A DNA stretch of 25,174 bases, from the IMG/VR virus record IMGVR_UViG_3300032331_001664, positions 1 through 25,174 of that record. One strand, given 5' to 3'. This DNA comes from a virus. Shown here piece by piece: positions 10,428 to 20,872 of the stretch. Under the pieces are notes generated by a model. It worked only from the letters and a program-made list of their open reading frames with translations. It searched no databases and had not been told where the DNA came from. A program made the translations under genes and the position numbers. How positions within the stretch are numbered: the stretch's first letter is position 1; each line of letters begins with the position of its first letter.

Positions 10428-11804
10428 TTATTTTTTAGATAACAATTTACTCAAAGCAAATGCAATAACAGGTGTAACAAACATTGCCAAACTAACTGCT
10501 ATAACATTAAACTCCGGAGTTTTAGTAATGATACCTTGTAAACCTAGATAAACGGTTAATGGTGCCATTATAATTGCTGCCCAAAATATTCCTCTACCTG
10601 TTAAGTATGCTGTTGTTAAAATACTTATTAAAATAATAAACAGATTAACACGTAATACTCCGTAAGTAAAGAATATGTAAGTTAAGTCCCAGTTTTGCAT
10701 TGCGATTAACCAAACTATAAATGCAACACCAACTATTGACCATCTTGCAACATTAACTGATTTGCTTTTATCTTTAACAAAGTCGTTTGCAATAATACTA
10801 GCAATAGCATTACCATGTGCATCAATGATAACACAAGCAACGTTTAGCATTGCAACACCAAAGATAGCAACAGCGGCTACACTTACAGATTTTAATAACA
10901 CTAGTTGATTTAAACTAACGTCTTTTATTTCTAAACCTGAAGCTAATGCAGCCGTTCCTATTAGTGCAATAATTGTTTGAAGTACAAAATATGTTGGTAC
11001 TCCCCACACCCATGCTTTCCAAGGTTTGAAGTTTTGTTGAGCATAGTTTTTTTGGTGGTGTGTTGCACTCATTAAAGGGCCAGTAAAAAATGTTAAAGCG
11101 GCTGTATAACCAAACGTTAACATAAGAGTAGGATCAAATAGATCACCAATCTGTTTTTTACCTGTTAAGAAATCAGAAAAAGACTTATCTGATGGAATAG
11201 CCTTAACTGCTATATAAAGTAAGACTGAAAATAATATAAAGTTTAAAGCCGTCTGTATAGAACCGGTTACTAAACTAGTTTTAATACCGCCACGGAAACT
11301 GTACAACGCTGTACCAGCCACTATTAAACCTGTAATTATTTCTGCATTACCTATTTCAATAAATTTAATGTATTTAAATGCTGCTGTAAATGTTGTTGCT
11401 AAATTGCCGAAACAAGCAAGTATGAAAATTATTTGAAATAAAGTACCTACGCCTGGACCATAAGTTTTTTTAATCCATTCACTTGTAGTGAAACCATTTG
11501 GTACTTTTTTGTTAATTCTAATTGTAAGCCAGGCAAACAATAAGAAACCTAATAGTTGAGGTACTGTAAACCAAAAATATCCTGCCCAACCATTATTATA
11601 AAATTGTTGACTGCCTGCAAACAGAGCTAAACCTGTTAACCAGCAACCAATCATACCTAGTGTACTTTCAACTAGGCCTGCGTTACGATTAGCTACAATA
11701 TAACCTTCTTTTGTATTACCGTAACTATTTGTAAATTTACTTATACCATAGAATATGGCAAAGTAACATACTAGAAATAGTATGACTGTTGTTATATCAA
11801 ACAT
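10428..11804 (-). CDS. Sodium:solute symporter (SSF/SLC5 family)
   Basis: A 458-aa polytopic membrane protein with roughly 12-13 hydrophobic spans. The pattern fits the SSF family: an N-terminal span, then SKFTNSYGNTKEGYIVANRNAGLVESTLGM, whose tail (here 'YIVANRNAGLVESTLGMIG') matches the YFLAGR..........S.......S region of family members. A Trp-Leu-Thr-Gly/Ala-Gly segment follows (CWLTGLALFAGS). Mid-protein loops GYTAALTFFTGPLMSATHHQKNYA resemble the SSF core before span 8. It would couple inward Na+ flow to uptake of a small solute (urea, proline, acetate and others are known substrates; this one cannot be assigned). The start is fixed by AAGGAG five bases upstream. It looks complete and is served by its own host-type promoter. 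A full-length secondary transporter is very unusual in a tailed phage. Confidence 0.85.
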   Translation of the reverse strand: MFDITTVILFLVCYFAIFYGISKFTNSYGNTKEGYIVANRNAGLVESTLGMIGCWLTGLALFAGSQQFYNNGWAGYFWFTVPQLLGFLLFAWLTIRINKKVPNGFTTSEWIKKTYGPGVGTLFQIIFILACFGNLATTFTAAFKYIKFIEIGNAEIITGLIVAGTALYSFRGGIKTSLVTGSIQTALNFILFSVLLYIAVKAIPSDKSFSDFLTGKKQIGDLFDPTLMLTFGYTAALTFFTGPLMSATHHQKNYAQQNFKPWKAWVWGVPTYFVLQTIIALIGTAALASGLEIKDVSLNQLVLLKSVSVAAVAIFGVAMLNVACVIIDAHGNAIASIIANDFVKDKSKSVNVARWSIVGVAFIVWLIAMQNWDLTYIFFTYGVLRVNLFIILISILTTAYLTGRGIFWAAIIMAPLTVYLGLQGIITKTPEFNVIAVSLAMFVTPVIAFALSKLLSKK

Positions 11805-11943: not shown

Positions 11944-12426
11944 ATGACAAAAACAACTAAAATTAAGTGGGTTATTGCTCACGAACCATTAAGTCTTTTT
12001 GAAAGAGCTGCTAAAGATTTTCAAAATTACGTTAATGCTGCTCAATCTGTTGAAAAGATTGAAGTGGAAGTAATGACATTAAAACAATACAGCGACAAAT
12101 ATAATAATGGTGTACAAGTTACTAAACACGATTTACTTGATCTTATGGAACAAGGCAAAATCGAAATGTCTCAAATGTACACAACTTGGTTAGCTGAAAA
12201 ATACGATCAAGATATGTTAGCATTAGAAATGCCTTTCATATTTAAAGATCATGCTCATGCTACTAGAGTACTAGAAGGCAAAGTAGGTGAAACTTTATTA
12301 GATAAAATTACTTCTTTCGGTAATGTACGTGGTATGGCGTTTACATATTCAGGCGGATTTAGAAATGTACTATCTAATAAAAAAGTTAGCGCATTAAAAG
12401 ATTTGACTGATGAAAGTAAGAACTAA
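11944..12426 (+). CDS. TRAP-type (DctP-like) binding protein, N-terminal half, copy 1
   Basis: A 160-aa protein corresponding to the first half of a DctP-family TRAP transporter solute-binding protein. It starts directly with strand 1 (TKIKWVIAHEPLSLFERAAKDF, equivalent to the mature family start '...LRLAH...'), continues with KIEVEVMTLKQYSDKY and a DLLDLMEQGKIEMSQMYTTWLAEKYDQDMLALEMPFIF segment (the family's '...G.idm......P.......lPf.f'), and ends at SGGFRNVLSNKKVSALKDL. Normal family members are exported and have a signal peptide; here there is none. The ORF stops just where the hinge into domain II and the ligand-binding Arg should come. It overlaps the C-terminal-half ORF by 17 bases in the +1 frame. 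Ligand unknown. Confidence 0.8.
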   Translation: MTKTTKIKWVIAHEPLSLFERAAKDFQNYVNAAQSVEKIEVEVMTLKQYSDKYNNGVQVTKHDLLDLMEQGKIEMSQMYTTWLAEKYDQDMLALEMPFIFKDHAHATRVLEGKVGETLLDKITSFGNVRGMAFTYSGGFRNVLSNKKVSALKDLTDESKN

Positions 12427-12898
12427 TAGAAATCCAGTAGCGCAAGAGACTTTTAAAGCTCTTGGTGTTGAAGATCCTTATATCTGCGAGATTGAGGATC
12501 TTGCAACACACATAAAAGCTGGTGACTGTGATGCAGGCGAAGGTGTATATAGCCGAGTATATCCATTAAAACAAAATGAGGTTACTAAGTCTGTAATTGA
12601 TAGTAAACATAGTTTATTTTTAACAACTATGATTATGCGTGAGGATTTTTGGAAAACATTAAGTCCAGAAGTTCAAAAGGTAATTAAAGATGCTGCCATT
12701 AAAGCTGGTAGACGAGAAAGACAAACTACAATTGAAGATGGTGAAGAAGCAAAGAAAAGACTTATAGAAGAAGGCGTCAATATACATGAATTAACACCTG
12801 AAGAAAAAGCTGATTGGGAAGAAAAAACCAAGAAGGTTTATGAAAAATTTGAACCTACCTTTACTAAAGGATTAATAAACGATATAAAGAAGTCTTGA
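12410..12898 (+). CDS. TRAP-type (DctP-like) binding protein, C-terminal half, copy 1
   Basis: A 162-aa protein that continues where the previous ORF stops. It starts MKVRTNRNPVAQETFKALG, matching the family's 'GLKIRVP.NP...E.FKALGA' with the carboxylate-binding Arg as residue 4. Then come EDLATHIKAGDCDAGEGVYSR, HSLFLTTMIMREDFWKTLSPEVQKVIKDAA (the family's 'W..L..e.Q..i.eaa') and a long C-terminal helical part to NDIKKS. Its frame has a TGA just upstream of the ATG, so it cannot be an extension in that frame. Expression needs coupled re-initiation at the ATGA-like overlap or a +1 shift in 12407-12426. All recognisable domain II features are kept, which argues against a decaying pseudogene. 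Confidence 0.78.
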   Translation: MKVRTNRNPVAQETFKALGVEDPYICEIEDLATHIKAGDCDAGEGVYSRVYPLKQNEVTKSVIDSKHSLFLTTMIMREDFWKTLSPEVQKVIKDAAIKAGRRERQTTIEDGEEAKKRLIEEGVNIHELTPEEKADWEEKTKKVYEKFEPTFTKGLINDIKKS

Positions 12899-12939
12899 TA
12901 TATACAAGATAATATTTGGTCAAGGTGATTGTTTGTATA

Positions 12940-12947
12940 TATAAATA
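12940..12947 (+). promoter_or_regulatory. T4-type late promoter of binding-protein copy 2
   Basis: An exact TATAAATA 33 bases before the ATG at 12981, within the duplicated leader. Confidence 0.75.
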
Positions 12948-12980
12948 TAACAAAACATGTTTAATCAAAGGGTTATTTAA

Positions 12981-13451
12981 ATGACAAAAACAACTAAAAT
13001 TAAATGGGTTATCGCCCATGAGCCTTTAAAGCTTTTTATAAGAGCTGCTAAAGATTTTCAAGATTTCGTTAATGCTGCTCAATCTGTTGAAAAGATTGAA
13101 GTAGAAGTTATGACATTATCAGAGTATAGTAACAAATATAACAATGGCGTACAAGTAACTAAACACGATTTACTTGATCTTATGGAACAAGGTAAAATAG
13201 AAATGTCTCAAATGTACACAACTTGGTTAGCTGAAAAGTATGACCACGATTTATTAGCATTAGACATGCCATATATATTTAAAGATCACGTACATGCCGC
13301 AAGAGTATTAGAAGGTAAAGTTGGTGAAACTTTATTAGAAAAAATTACATCTTTCGGTAACGTTAGAGGTCTAGCATTCACGTATTCAGGTGGATTTAGA
13401 AATATTGTAACTAATAAAAAACAAAGTAATTTAGAAACTTTAAAAAAGTAA
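12981..13451 (+). CDS. TRAP-type (DctP-like) binding protein, N-terminal half, copy 2
   Basis: A 156-aa paralogue of the 11944 ORF, with the same start (MTKTTKIKWVIAHEP), the same DLLDLMEQGKIEMSQMYTTW block and the same SGGFRN ending; it also has no signal peptide. Substitutions are spread along its length and mostly conservative, as expected under selection. It ends NLETLKK followed by TAA. The C-terminal-half ORF begins 18 bases later in the same frame: only the TAA and six codons (FKYYYN) separate the halves. Stop-codon read-through could therefore yield one polypeptide, but the absence of similar linker residues in the third paralogue suggests two chains are normal. Confidence 0.8.
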   Translation: MTKTTKIKWVIAHEPLKLFIRAAKDFQDFVNAAQSVEKIEVEVMTLSEYSNKYNNGVQVTKHDLLDLMEQGKIEMSQMYTTWLAEKYDHDLLALDMPYIFKDHVHAARVLEGKVGETLLEKITSFGNVRGLAFTYSGGFRNIVTNKKQSNLETLKK

Positions 13452-13469
13452 TTTAAATACTATTATAAT

Positions 13470-13964
13470 ATGAAATTAAGAGCAAATCGTAATCCAGTTG
13501 CGAAAGCAACTTTGAAAGCTCTGAAAGGTTCTGATAAAGATGTTCACGTTTGTGAAATTGAAGAACTTACAGATCATGTGGCTACCGGAAAATGTGATGG
13601 TGGCGAAACTAACTACAGCAGAGTCTATCCTTTAAAACAAAATGAAGTGATAGAATCTGTTGTGGATACAGAACATAGTTTATTTCTTACATCAATGATT
13701 ATGCGTGAGAATTTTTGGAAAACATTAAGTCCAGAAGTTCAAAAAGTAATTAAAGATGCTGCTATTAAAGCTGGCAGAAAAGAAAGACAAACTACAATTG
13801 AAGATGGTGAAGAAGCGAAACAGATGCTTATTAAAGAAGGTAAAACAATACACACTTTAACACCAGAAGAAAAACAAGAGTTTATTGATAAAACTAAGGT
13901 GGTTTATGAGGAGTTTGAAAAAACTTTTACACCAGGTTTAATAAACGATATAAAGAACGGTTAA
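13470..13964 (+). CDS. TRAP-type (DctP-like) binding protein, C-terminal half, copy 2
   Basis: A 164-aa paralogue of the 12410 ORF. It starts MKLRANRNPVAKATLKALKG with the ligand Arg at position 4, then VCEIEELTDHVATGKCDGGETNYSRVYP, HSLFLTSMIMRENFWKTLSPEVQKVIKDAAI and a closing helical segment to LINDIKNG. Compared with copy 1 it has a two-residue insertion (SDKD) and a changed linker. No Shine-Dalgarno precedes its ATG (upstream is TACTATTATAAT), so it probably depends on ribosomes terminating 18 bases upstream. It is followed within 2 bases by the first of two tandem late boxes for the third paralogue. Confidence 0.78.
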   Translation: MKLRANRNPVAKATLKALKGSDKDVHVCEIEELTDHVATGKCDGGETNYSRVYPLKQNEVIESVVDTEHSLFLTSMIMRENFWKTLSPEVQKVIKDAAIKAGRKERQTTIEDGEEAKQMLIKEGKTIHTLTPEEKQEFIDKTKVVYEEFEKTFTPGLINDIKNG

Positions 13965-14019: not shown

Positions 14020-15072
14020 ATGTCTAACAAAAAAACTTTACGTTGGGTTATAGCACATCACCCAGTTTCATTATTTGAAAGAACAGCAAAATTGTTCAAA
14101 CAAGAATTAGAAAAAGAGTGCCCAAATCAATTTAATTTGGAAATTTATACACCTGGAACTTATGATAATAAATTCAAAAACCATCCAGAATTTAAAATTG
14201 TACCACCAGATGTTAATGGTTTAGAAGAAAGACCTTCTTCTGTAAAATCACTTAATGGTGAAGAAGTACAATTAAAAAAACAAAAACTTTGGTCAGAAGC
14301 TAAAGGAAGATGGACGTCTTTTTTCAATGCTCTTAGAGACGGAGATTTTGAAATCAGTCAAACACAAGTTGGTATCGTAGGTGGTTTCTTAGATAGAAAT
14401 TATCACGCTATTGATTTGCCTTTCTTATTTAATGGCCACGATCATGTATCTAAAGTATTAGATAACGAAATCGGCGATTATATGTCTGACAATTTAGCAA
14501 GAAAAACTGGAGTTAGAGGTTTAGCTTTTACATACTCTGGAGGTTATAGAGTAATTGGTGCTAAAAAAGGAATAACAGCTCTAAGCGATTTATCAGCATT
14601 AAAATTAGTAACTCACACTGCTCACAGTGATGAATTATTTAATAATGTTGGTGCTAAAACTCTTAGAAAAGATAAAGCAACTATTGAAGATGTTGCTGAT
14701 CTTAATAAAGATGAAAACGGAGCAATTGAAACAACTTATTTAAGATTTGCTGGTAAAAACGTGTTAAAGACACAGCACAGTATGTTTACTACTACAATCT
14801 TAACAGGTGATAAATTCTGGAATACATTAACATCAGAACAACAAGCAGCTTTCAAAAGAATTGCTAAAGTTGTTGCTAAAGAGGAACGTAAATGGTCTCT
14901 ACAAGATTCGGCTGCTTACGAAGCTAATGCTCAAGCAAATGGTGTTACTATTACAGAAATCAATAAATCTGATCTTGCAAAATTACAAGAATCAGCTAAG
15001 AAAGTTTATTCTAATTTAGATAACATTGGAATTGACAAAAAATTAGTTGACAGAATTATTGCTGCTGCTTAA
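14020..15072 (+). CDS. Full-length TRAP-type (DctP-like) binding protein paralogue
   Basis: A 350-aa unsplit member of the same group as the two split copies. It starts MSNKKTLRWVIAHHPVSLFERTAKLF without a signal peptide. Compared with copies 1 and 2 it has an insertion of about 40 residues (about 55-95, PPDVNGLEERPSSVKSLNG and following). Then come FEISQTQVGIVGGFLDRNYHAIDLPFLF, RGLAFTYSGGYRVI, a domain junction ALSDLSALKLVTHTAHSDELF and the C-terminal block FWNTLTSEQQAAFKRIAKVVAKEERKW. At the position of the conserved carboxylate-binding Arg (KVR in copy 1, KLR in copy 2) it has Val (KLV). The usual ligand mode is therefore probably lost or changed. It has the best expression signals of the three: two exact late boxes and GAGGAG. 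Confidence 0.8.
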   Translation: MSNKKTLRWVIAHHPVSLFERTAKLFKQELEKECPNQFNLEIYTPGTYDNKFKNHPEFKIVPPDVNGLEERPSSVKSLNGEEVQLKKQKLWSEAKGRWTSFFNALRDGDFEISQTQVGIVGGFLDRNYHAIDLPFLFNGHDHVSKVLDNEIGDYMSDNLARKTGVRGLAFTYSGGYRVIGAKKGITALSDLSALKLVTHTAHSDELFNNVGAKTLRKDKATIEDVADLNKDENGAIETTYLRFAGKNVLKTQHSMFTTTILTGDKFWNTLTSEQQAAFKRIAKVVAKEERKWSLQDSAAYEANAQANGVTITEINKSDLAKLQESAKKVYSNLDNIGIDKKLVDRIIAAA

Positions 15073-19225: not shown

Positions 19226-20872
19226 ATGCCTGCAATTACAAACGCAGATGTTAATCAAACAATATTAGTTACTTTATATCTTAAAAGAGATTTGCATGAA
19301 AACGGCCAATCTTTGTCTGAATATGTTAAAGGTATACAATCAAAAGAAAATTCTATTTTAACGCATGAACAATTTACTTATCAATTTGGTACAATAGAAG
19401 AAGAAATGAAATTAGTAACAGATTATGTTACATCAAAAGGATTAACTATAGAAGATGATTGTAGATTAAAATCATCCGTTAAAGTATCAGGAACAATAGG
19501 TGCGTTTAATGATATATTTTCAATAACACTACAAACTGAGGTTGATGGTGATAGAACTTATACAACACATGAAGGAGATATTACTATTCCTACAGAAATA
19601 TCTTCTGTAGTGGAAAAAGTTTTAGGTTTAGATAATAAAATAGTCGTAGCAAGACCATCAGCAATAAGATTTGTTCAGGAAGAGTATGTACCACCTGAAA
19701 ATGTTCCTCCAGGAGTTTATATTGGTGCAGTTACTCCTGTTGAAGTTGCAAGTGCTTATAATTTACCGGCCGGAGATGGTTACGGTGGTTGTATTGGAAT
19801 TTATGAATTAACTTATTATGGTTATCAAACAGGTTGGAATCAAACTGATGTTAATAATTCTTTCAGTAGAATAGGAATTACTCCACCTACTATTGTAACG
19901 ATTAATACTGACGGCGTAACAACATTAACTACAAGTGATGCTGAAAGTATGTTGGACATTTATTGTGCTGGTGCGGTTGCGCCTAGAGCAAAGATTGCTT
20001 ATTATAATGCTCCTAATTCTTTTCAGGGAGTTATAGATAATTTTTTAACAGTAGCAGCAGATACTACAAATAGTCCTAGTGTTATTAGTTGTAGTTGGGC
20101 ATTTGGAGATTATAATCCATTATATTGGTTTACTGATGCCATGGCAGCTTGTGTAGCTGTAGGTGTTACAATATTAGTGGCTTCAGGAGATGCAGGTGCT
20201 CAAAATTTTAATATGTATTCTCCTTATGGAATAACTACTGATCTTAATGCTTGTATTTGTGGAGGAACTACTATCTATTTAAGTAATGATAAACAATCTT
20301 ATTCACAAGAAATAGGATGGAGTGGTTCGGGTGGAGGTATTAGCAATGTTAATAATTTACCATCTTATCAAATAGGTTGCAAATACACAACTAAAACTTT
20401 AGGAGGAATAACAGGAACTCCAACACAATTACCTAAGAGAGGTGTTCCTGACATAAGTGCTCCTTCAGATCCAGGTACAGGTTTTCAATTTTATCTTAAT
20501 GGAAGTTTAAGTCAATATGGTGGAACAAGTGCGGCTGCACCTTGGATAGCTGGAATGATAGTAAGATTTAATGTACTTACAAGTAAAAGAATGGGTCATG
20601 TAAATGAATTTTTTTATGCCAATCCTTCAACATATAGAGATACTGCTTTAGGAGATAACGTTAGAGGGTATGCAAATGGTTATACTACTACAGCAGATAG
20701 TTGGGATGCCGTTACTGGTTTAGGAAGTCCTTACGGACCTGGAATTTACACATTATTAAAGAAAGAAATGAAAATTGCATATCCCAAAGTAAATTATGGG
20801 TTTAGAAGTGCAAATAAACAAAGATATCCGAGATATACAACTGGTGTATCAGGAAGAACCAATAATTCGTAA
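19226..20872 (+). CDS. S53 family serine-carboxyl peptidase (sedolisin/kumamolisin type), complete
   Basis: A 548-aa protein. Residues about 1-150 fit a pro-kumamolisin activation domain (VTLYLKRDLHENGQSLSEY, then KVSGTIGAFNDIFS) and about 160-515 the catalytic domain. All active-site residues are present with family spacing: Glu240 and Asp244 in SDAESMLDIY, the oxyanion Asp322 in VASGDAGA, and the nucleophile Ser435 in YGGTSAAAP. A C-terminal calcium-site motif, DSWDAVTGLGSP (Asp494), follows. No signal peptide is seen. About 35 C-terminal residues (basic, Tyr/Arg-rich) extend beyond the domain. Its place between the fibre and gp25, with a 1-base gap, suggests a virion-associated or maturation protease. 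These enzymes usually work at acid pH and self-activate. Virion association is inference. Confidence 0.9.
   Translation: MPAITNADVNQTILVTLYLKRDLHENGQSLSEYVKGIQSKENSILTHEQFTYQFGTIEEEMKLVTDYVTSKGLTIEDDCRLKSSVKVSGTIGAFNDIFSITLQTEVDGDRTYTTHEGDITIPTEISSVVEKVLGLDNKIVVARPSAIRFVQEEYVPPENVPPGVYIGAVTPVEVASAYNLPAGDGYGGCIGIYELTYYGYQTGWNQTDVNNSFSRIGITPPTIVTINTDGVTTLTTSDAESMLDIYCAGAVAPRAKIAYYNAPNSFQGVIDNFLTVAADTTNSPSVISCSWAFGDYNPLYWFTDAMAACVAVGVTILVASGDAGAQNFNMYSPYGITTDLNACICGGTTIYLSNDKQSYSQEIGWSGSGGGISNVNNLPSYQIGCKYTTKTLGGITGTPTQLPKRGVPDISAPSDPGTGFQFYLNGSLSQYGGTSAAAPWIAGMIVRFNVLTSKRMGHVNEFFYANPSTYRDTALGDNVRGYANGYTTTADSWDAVTGLGSPYGPGIYTLLKKEMKIAYPKVNYGFRSANKQRYPRYTTGVSGRTNNS

Follow-up and report, generated by a model that had tools for sequence, protein, structure and literature searches.

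Two adjacent genes of a phage each encode, as two separate open reading frames (ORFs), the N- and C-terminal halves of a DctP-like solute-binding protein. Our analysis makes it probable that the products form a cytosolic two-chain carboxylate-binding protein, in which the N and C chains reassemble, and which descends from a DctP gene of aquatic phages that was split only once. We infer both the physical assembly of the chains and the binding of a carboxylate from the conservation, predicted fold and residue patterns described below. The genes lie in the window, by which we mean the whole 25,174-nucleotide (nt) stretch of the 25-kb virus record IMGVR_UViG_3300032331_001664, itself a fragment; other loci and contigs are designated by L-numbers.

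Two split copies with a common break point

In the first copy, the N chain (N1; 11944..12426, + strand; 160 aa) starts 11 residues ahead of an H-E-P motif, is without a signal peptide and matches the Pfam DctP family PF03480 with E 6.7e-14. Its C chain (C1; 12410..12898, + strand; 162 aa; E 3.3e-29) overlaps N1 by 17 nt in the +1 frame and starts with MKVR, which contains the family arginine. The second N chain (N2; 12981..13451, + strand; 156 aa; E 4.1e-13), 86% identical to N1, ends in an in-frame TAA (13449-13451) that is followed by an 18-nt spacer of six codons (13452..13469, + strand) and then by the ATG, at 13470, of the second C chain (C2; 13470..13964, + strand; 164 aa; E 2.6e-24), which starts with MKLR and is 72% identical to C1. 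A preliminary description of this DNA had reported the two split copies with their dissimilar breaks and had placed the break at the same point in both, ahead of the arginine-bearing strand. Its coordinates and break types are exact, and all four halves match PF03480 above the cut-off of that family (E 4e-13 to 3e-29). The profile positions agree with it as well: the N halves extend from position 35 to 134 (copy 1) or 127 (copy 2) and both C halves from 138 to 284/285; hence, both copies are broken at one and the same position, just ahead of an M-K-[VLI]-R strand. Downstream lies a third, unsplit and diverged DctP paralogue (14020..15072, + strand; 350 aa; E 3.9e-27) from which the family arginine is absent and which is 100% identical in L010. 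This near relative is ~97% identical to the window and has a single split pair versus the two of the window.

Recurrence of the split and selection on the halves

A scan with N1 recovered 59 viral loci. As scans with the single proteins P0004, P0002 and P0005 gave few loci, an alignment of the C halves was used as the query instead and recovered 48 viral loci. The N and C halves are separate ORFs in 25 tabulated pairs (both window copies counted), which collapse into 18 clusters at 90-95% nucleotide identity, henceforth about 18 lineages; in all 25, the C chain starts at the same residue, a methionine or GTG-coded position followed by K-[VIL]-R. A single intact DctP-like ORF is present in other viral loci and in some contigs of bacterial MAGs. 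Searches of the INPHARED phages returned no match to P0002 or P0003; weak matches there to the fused relatives are ordinary TRAP proteins in unannotated or bacterial-looking records. The junctions of the 25 pairs come in five layouts that span all three frames: an overlap of -17 or -20 nt in phase +1 (10 pairs), an ATGA overlap of -4 nt (seven), TAATAA-ATG with a +3 gap (four), a +18/+19 gap (window copy 2 and L010) and a +82/+81 gap with a hairpin (L020 and L035). The preliminary description had proposed looking for the same split in relatives, and its occurrence in about 18 viral lineages cannot be put down to chance; as a cause of the split, sequencing error is ruled out by recurrence in independent contigs.

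The same description had also proposed computing dN/dS for each half. By pairwise NG86 estimates, the medians are 0.093 for the N half (range 0.026-0.152, 48 pairs) and 0.111 for the C half (range 0.057-0.343, 28 pairs), far from 1, and both halves are, on these values, under purifying selection. A somewhat higher value for C1 versus C2 (0.26) signals mild relaxation and would be the point in favor of regarding the halves as products of pseudogene decay or of sequencing errors; with about 18 lineages sharing the split, low dN/dS and both halves open throughout, we regard such an origin as extremely improbable.

A single split preceding the duplication

In a tree of 65 rows, the split forms constitute one clade (97/95), beside and inside the fused relatives, and the window copies are sisters or close kin in a group with L010 (100/99). 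The split clade is again recovered with the N halves only (91/88). With the C halves only, the fused L028 group falls inside the split set (86/88); the AU test does not reject a C tree in which the split rows are constrained to one group (p-AU 0.24). This placement counts against our main reading in that a later re-fusion in the L028 group is possible. Since the window copies are sisters inside one split clade, the split happened once, before the duplication, and the tree rejects two independent decays or splits in these copies. The argument of the preliminary description, that two unrelated events are unlikely to hit the same point, thus loses its footing, as there was one split.

We envisage that a phage acquired the gene of a bacterial DctP-type (TRAP) binding protein, the phage version being without an export signal. 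One break would then have occurred in one lineage of this phage gene, in the loop ahead of the K-x-R strand, where relatives often have an internal methionine: this residue is frequent in them precisely at the position of the later C start (L120/L121, for instance, have G-M-K-I-R), so that one stop codon or frameshift immediately ahead of it could have sufficed to produce the pair. Thereafter, the N chain (~155 aa) and the C chain (~162 aa) would each have been translated on its own and maintained by selection, and the window would represent a tandem duplication of an already split pair alongside an older unsplit paralogue.

Junctions and translation of the C chain

The alternative raised in the preliminary description, that recoding restores a full-length protein through frameshifting in copy 1 or readthrough of the TAA in copy 2, finds some encouragement in the +1 layout common to 10 of the 25 tabulated pairs. 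However, junctions occur in all three phases among the five layouts, and spacer indels shift the frame between close relatives: the spacer of window copy 2 (phase 0, 18 nt) differs by one base from that of L010 (phase 1, 19 nt), and those of L020 and L035 likewise differ by one base with a change of frame. Furthermore, terminator-like hairpins with a T run behind them lie between the halves in L020 and L035 (-16.5 and -18.9 kcal/mol; z -5.7 and -4.6; the L020 hairpin was found by folding and is not listed by the pattern scan), and folding of the window junctions yields no RNA structure above chance (z -0.03 and -0.34). We accordingly consider recoding very improbable. If the hairpin of L020 and L035 ends transcription, the halves would be on separate messages in that lineage.

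A Shine-Dalgarno sequence is weak at C1 and absent at C2, which counts against separate two-chain expression; in several relatives of the -17 class it is comparable at the C and N starts, and several relatives have an AAAGG-type sequence within LKG codons ahead of the C start. C1 is probably translated by reinitiation or by coupling from N1. Two candidate promoter signals were discarded: a sigma-70-like match before C2 did not exceed shuffled sequences, and a late promoter, proposed from TATAAATA ahead of N2 and of the third paralogue, was dropped, there being nine sites versus 7.5 expected from shuffles.

Predicted fold and a probable binding site spread over two chains

We modeled copy 2 read through its TAA, i.e., with the chains artificially joined, with an alignment of 54 rows, taken from the window and the loci, as input. 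The model is confident (pLDDT 94, pTM 0.90) other than in the junction block, where pLDDT drops to 64 in a loop of low confidence immediately followed by the K-L-R strand. Among solved structures, TRAP binding proteins come closest, 8t9t being the best match (TM 0.83), and the top two matches in a library of viral structures are an N-half of 159 aa and a C-half of 162 aa, both from uncultured Caudovirales phage entries. The model of the joined chain shows that the N and C sequences are compatible with one predicted DctP fold. The functional two-chain protein suggested in the preliminary description is hence supported by recurrence in about 18 lineages, dN/dS of ~0.1 in both halves, a confident fold of the joined sequence and a break located in a loop.

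Each chain has an invariant arginine: R140 in N and R4 in C. The latter, invariant in 20 sequences, aligns with the K-[VI]-R-T of 8t9t and 4p47, and by this family motif it is the equivalent of Arg-147 of SiaP, which in that protein is required for high-affinity carboxylate binding (PMC4646407). As the conserved arginines lie on different chains (GFR in N, MK[VIL]R in C), the predicted site would need both chains. Most likely, the chains would reassemble in the host cytoplasm into one two-domain protein of the DctP fold, in which the N chain would supply the GFR arginine and the C chain the carboxylate-contacting one. Unsplit paralogues without the family arginine occur in the window (14020-15072), at L009:8010-8981 and at L059:6001-6981; they probably bind something else than the split pair does.

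At L021:6467-7439, L020:6560-7539 and L035:6559-7536, a single N chain precedes two dissimilar C chains. On at least two occasions, once in the lineage of L020 and L035 and once in L021, the C chain has thus been multiplied without the N chain; the C chains of L021 occupy separate positions in the tree, suggesting C-chain exchange at the split point. This multiplication fits independent chains, and it is the observation that would favor halves that are made but not reassembled, acting as separate proteins, e.g., with the C chain as a stand-alone module. Such a state is nevertheless unlikely in our estimate: the N and C genes are adjacent in every split contig examined, the family arginines are parted between the chains and each domain of a DctP protein is composed of both sequence halves.

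Cellular location and transport partners

Nearly all members start 9-11 residues before H-E-P and have no hydrophobic stretch. The viral members are without a signal peptide, the exception being an optional upstream ATG in L059/L060; among the cellular relatives, L119-L124 and L126 (Bacteriovoracaceae/Bdellovibrionota and one MAG) have N-termini that resemble signal peptides. No DctM permease (PF06808) was found in 18 viral records, among them several T4-portal-bearing contigs of up to 357 kb. Given no signal peptide and no DctM in those 18 records, these sequences make a role in transport unlikely and point to a cytosolic location of the viral DctP proteins.

Side observations concern potential transport partners. 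On a viral contig (L112:6058-9519), a DctP without a signal peptide adjoins a permease, TctA, and a binding protein, TctC, and L114 is alike with respect to TctC. In the window, a sodium/solute-symporter-like gene (10428..11804, - strand; TIGR00813 E 3.9e-8, below the model cut-off) lies upstream of the DctP genes in divergent orientation and is 98% identical in L010. Together with the DctP family identity, these neighbors would be in keeping with periplasmic nutrient uptake, served by a host TRAP transporter or the symporter-like protein and reached through an unrecognized export route. We hold this to be quite unlikely: signal peptides are kept in the TctC neighbors of related phages and in the PstS of phage Mosig while the viral DctP members have none, DctM is missing from the 18 viral records, and, of the loci checked, just the window and L010 have a symporter-like gene near the DctP genes. 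For the cytosolic two-chain protein, the most likely role, proposed here with low confidence, would be to bind a small carboxylate within the cell or deliver it there, not to transport it.

A neighboring family with an SGGxDS motif

In most of the related viral contigs, a ~395-aa protein with an SGGxDS motif is encoded within a few kb of DctP, often along with a signal-bearing TctC (e.g., L078:5297-6481, L082:5294-6481, L094:5282-6463, L107:5301-6482 and many others). It has no match in Pfam, NCBIfam, the solved structures or the INPHARED sequences; its predicted model bears a weak likeness to PP-loop ATPases, of which GMP synthetase and LarE are examples. In L013-L016, L020, L035 and L118, the same DctP-adjacent place is taken by another SGGxDS family, which is more distant (L074:6133-7395, L088:4914-6089, L118:6546-7784). 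The ~395-aa protein is absent from the window and its 45-kb relative within the available sequence and, hence, does not explain the window copies. As a speculation that we would sooner doubt than adopt, the anciently split cytosolic TRAP binding protein could be an intracellular ligand-binding device of phages with interchangeable C chains, whose partner, in many relatives, is a PP-loop-type enzyme and not a transporter.

Relationship to known systems

With the TRAP DctP proteins (PF03480), such as the isethionate-binding IseP (8t9t) and SiaP, the phage proteins share the family, the predicted fold and the carboxylate-contacting arginine; they differ in having two chains, no signal peptide and no DctM in the viral records. 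Database entries already hold the halves as two proteins: A0A6J7WI33 and A0A6J7WKL0 of uncultured Caudovirales phage are separate matches to the N half (79% identity) and the C half (65% identity), and they bear only the automatic name 'TRAP transporter solute receptor DctP/TeaA'. Both halves and the third paralogue also match PHROG phrog_31178 (unknown function), a single profile of 336 positions that corresponds to the unsplit form.

In T4-related phages, the split nrdA of Aeh1 is active and the products of the split gene 43 of phages 25 and 44RR co-purify (PMC2988022). Split phage proteins that reassemble are therefore known, which we count in favor of the two-chain protein. There, too, two ORFs encode what is ordinarily one protein, with both halves conserved. 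However, a homing endonuclease or inserted untranslated sequence is associated with those splits, and neither is seen in the window, where the gaps at the split points are -17 and +18 nt (an 81-82-nt hairpin spacer occurs only in L020/L035); moreover, nrdA and gene 43 encode enzymes of DNA metabolism, whereas the window protein is a binding protein. The literature searched contains no description of this split or of a natural two-chain solute-binding protein. With split functional genes already known from T4-related phages, what has no counterpart in the literature searched is a split solute-binding protein, kept in about 18 lineages and with changing junctions. In these lineages, nature supplies about 18 examples of a single viable split point, useful for the design of split proteins and biosensors. 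The consistent lack of signal peptides suggests, further, that some phage 'TRAP transporter' genes act intracellularly and have been misread as nutrient-uptake genes.

Genomic context in the window

The window carries contractile-tail genes, namely those for a hub, a gp25-like wedge and a gp6-like wedge, the last of which is 63% identical to gp6 of Pelagibacter phage Mosig (Kyanoviridae). The two adjacent split DctP-like genes and, after them, the unsplit paralogue lie between the hub gene and the PAAR/fiber genes. Farther along, between a collagen-like fiber gene and the baseplate wedge genes, is a gene (19226-20872) for a protease-like protein with a pro-kumamolisin activation domain and a weak subtilase match.
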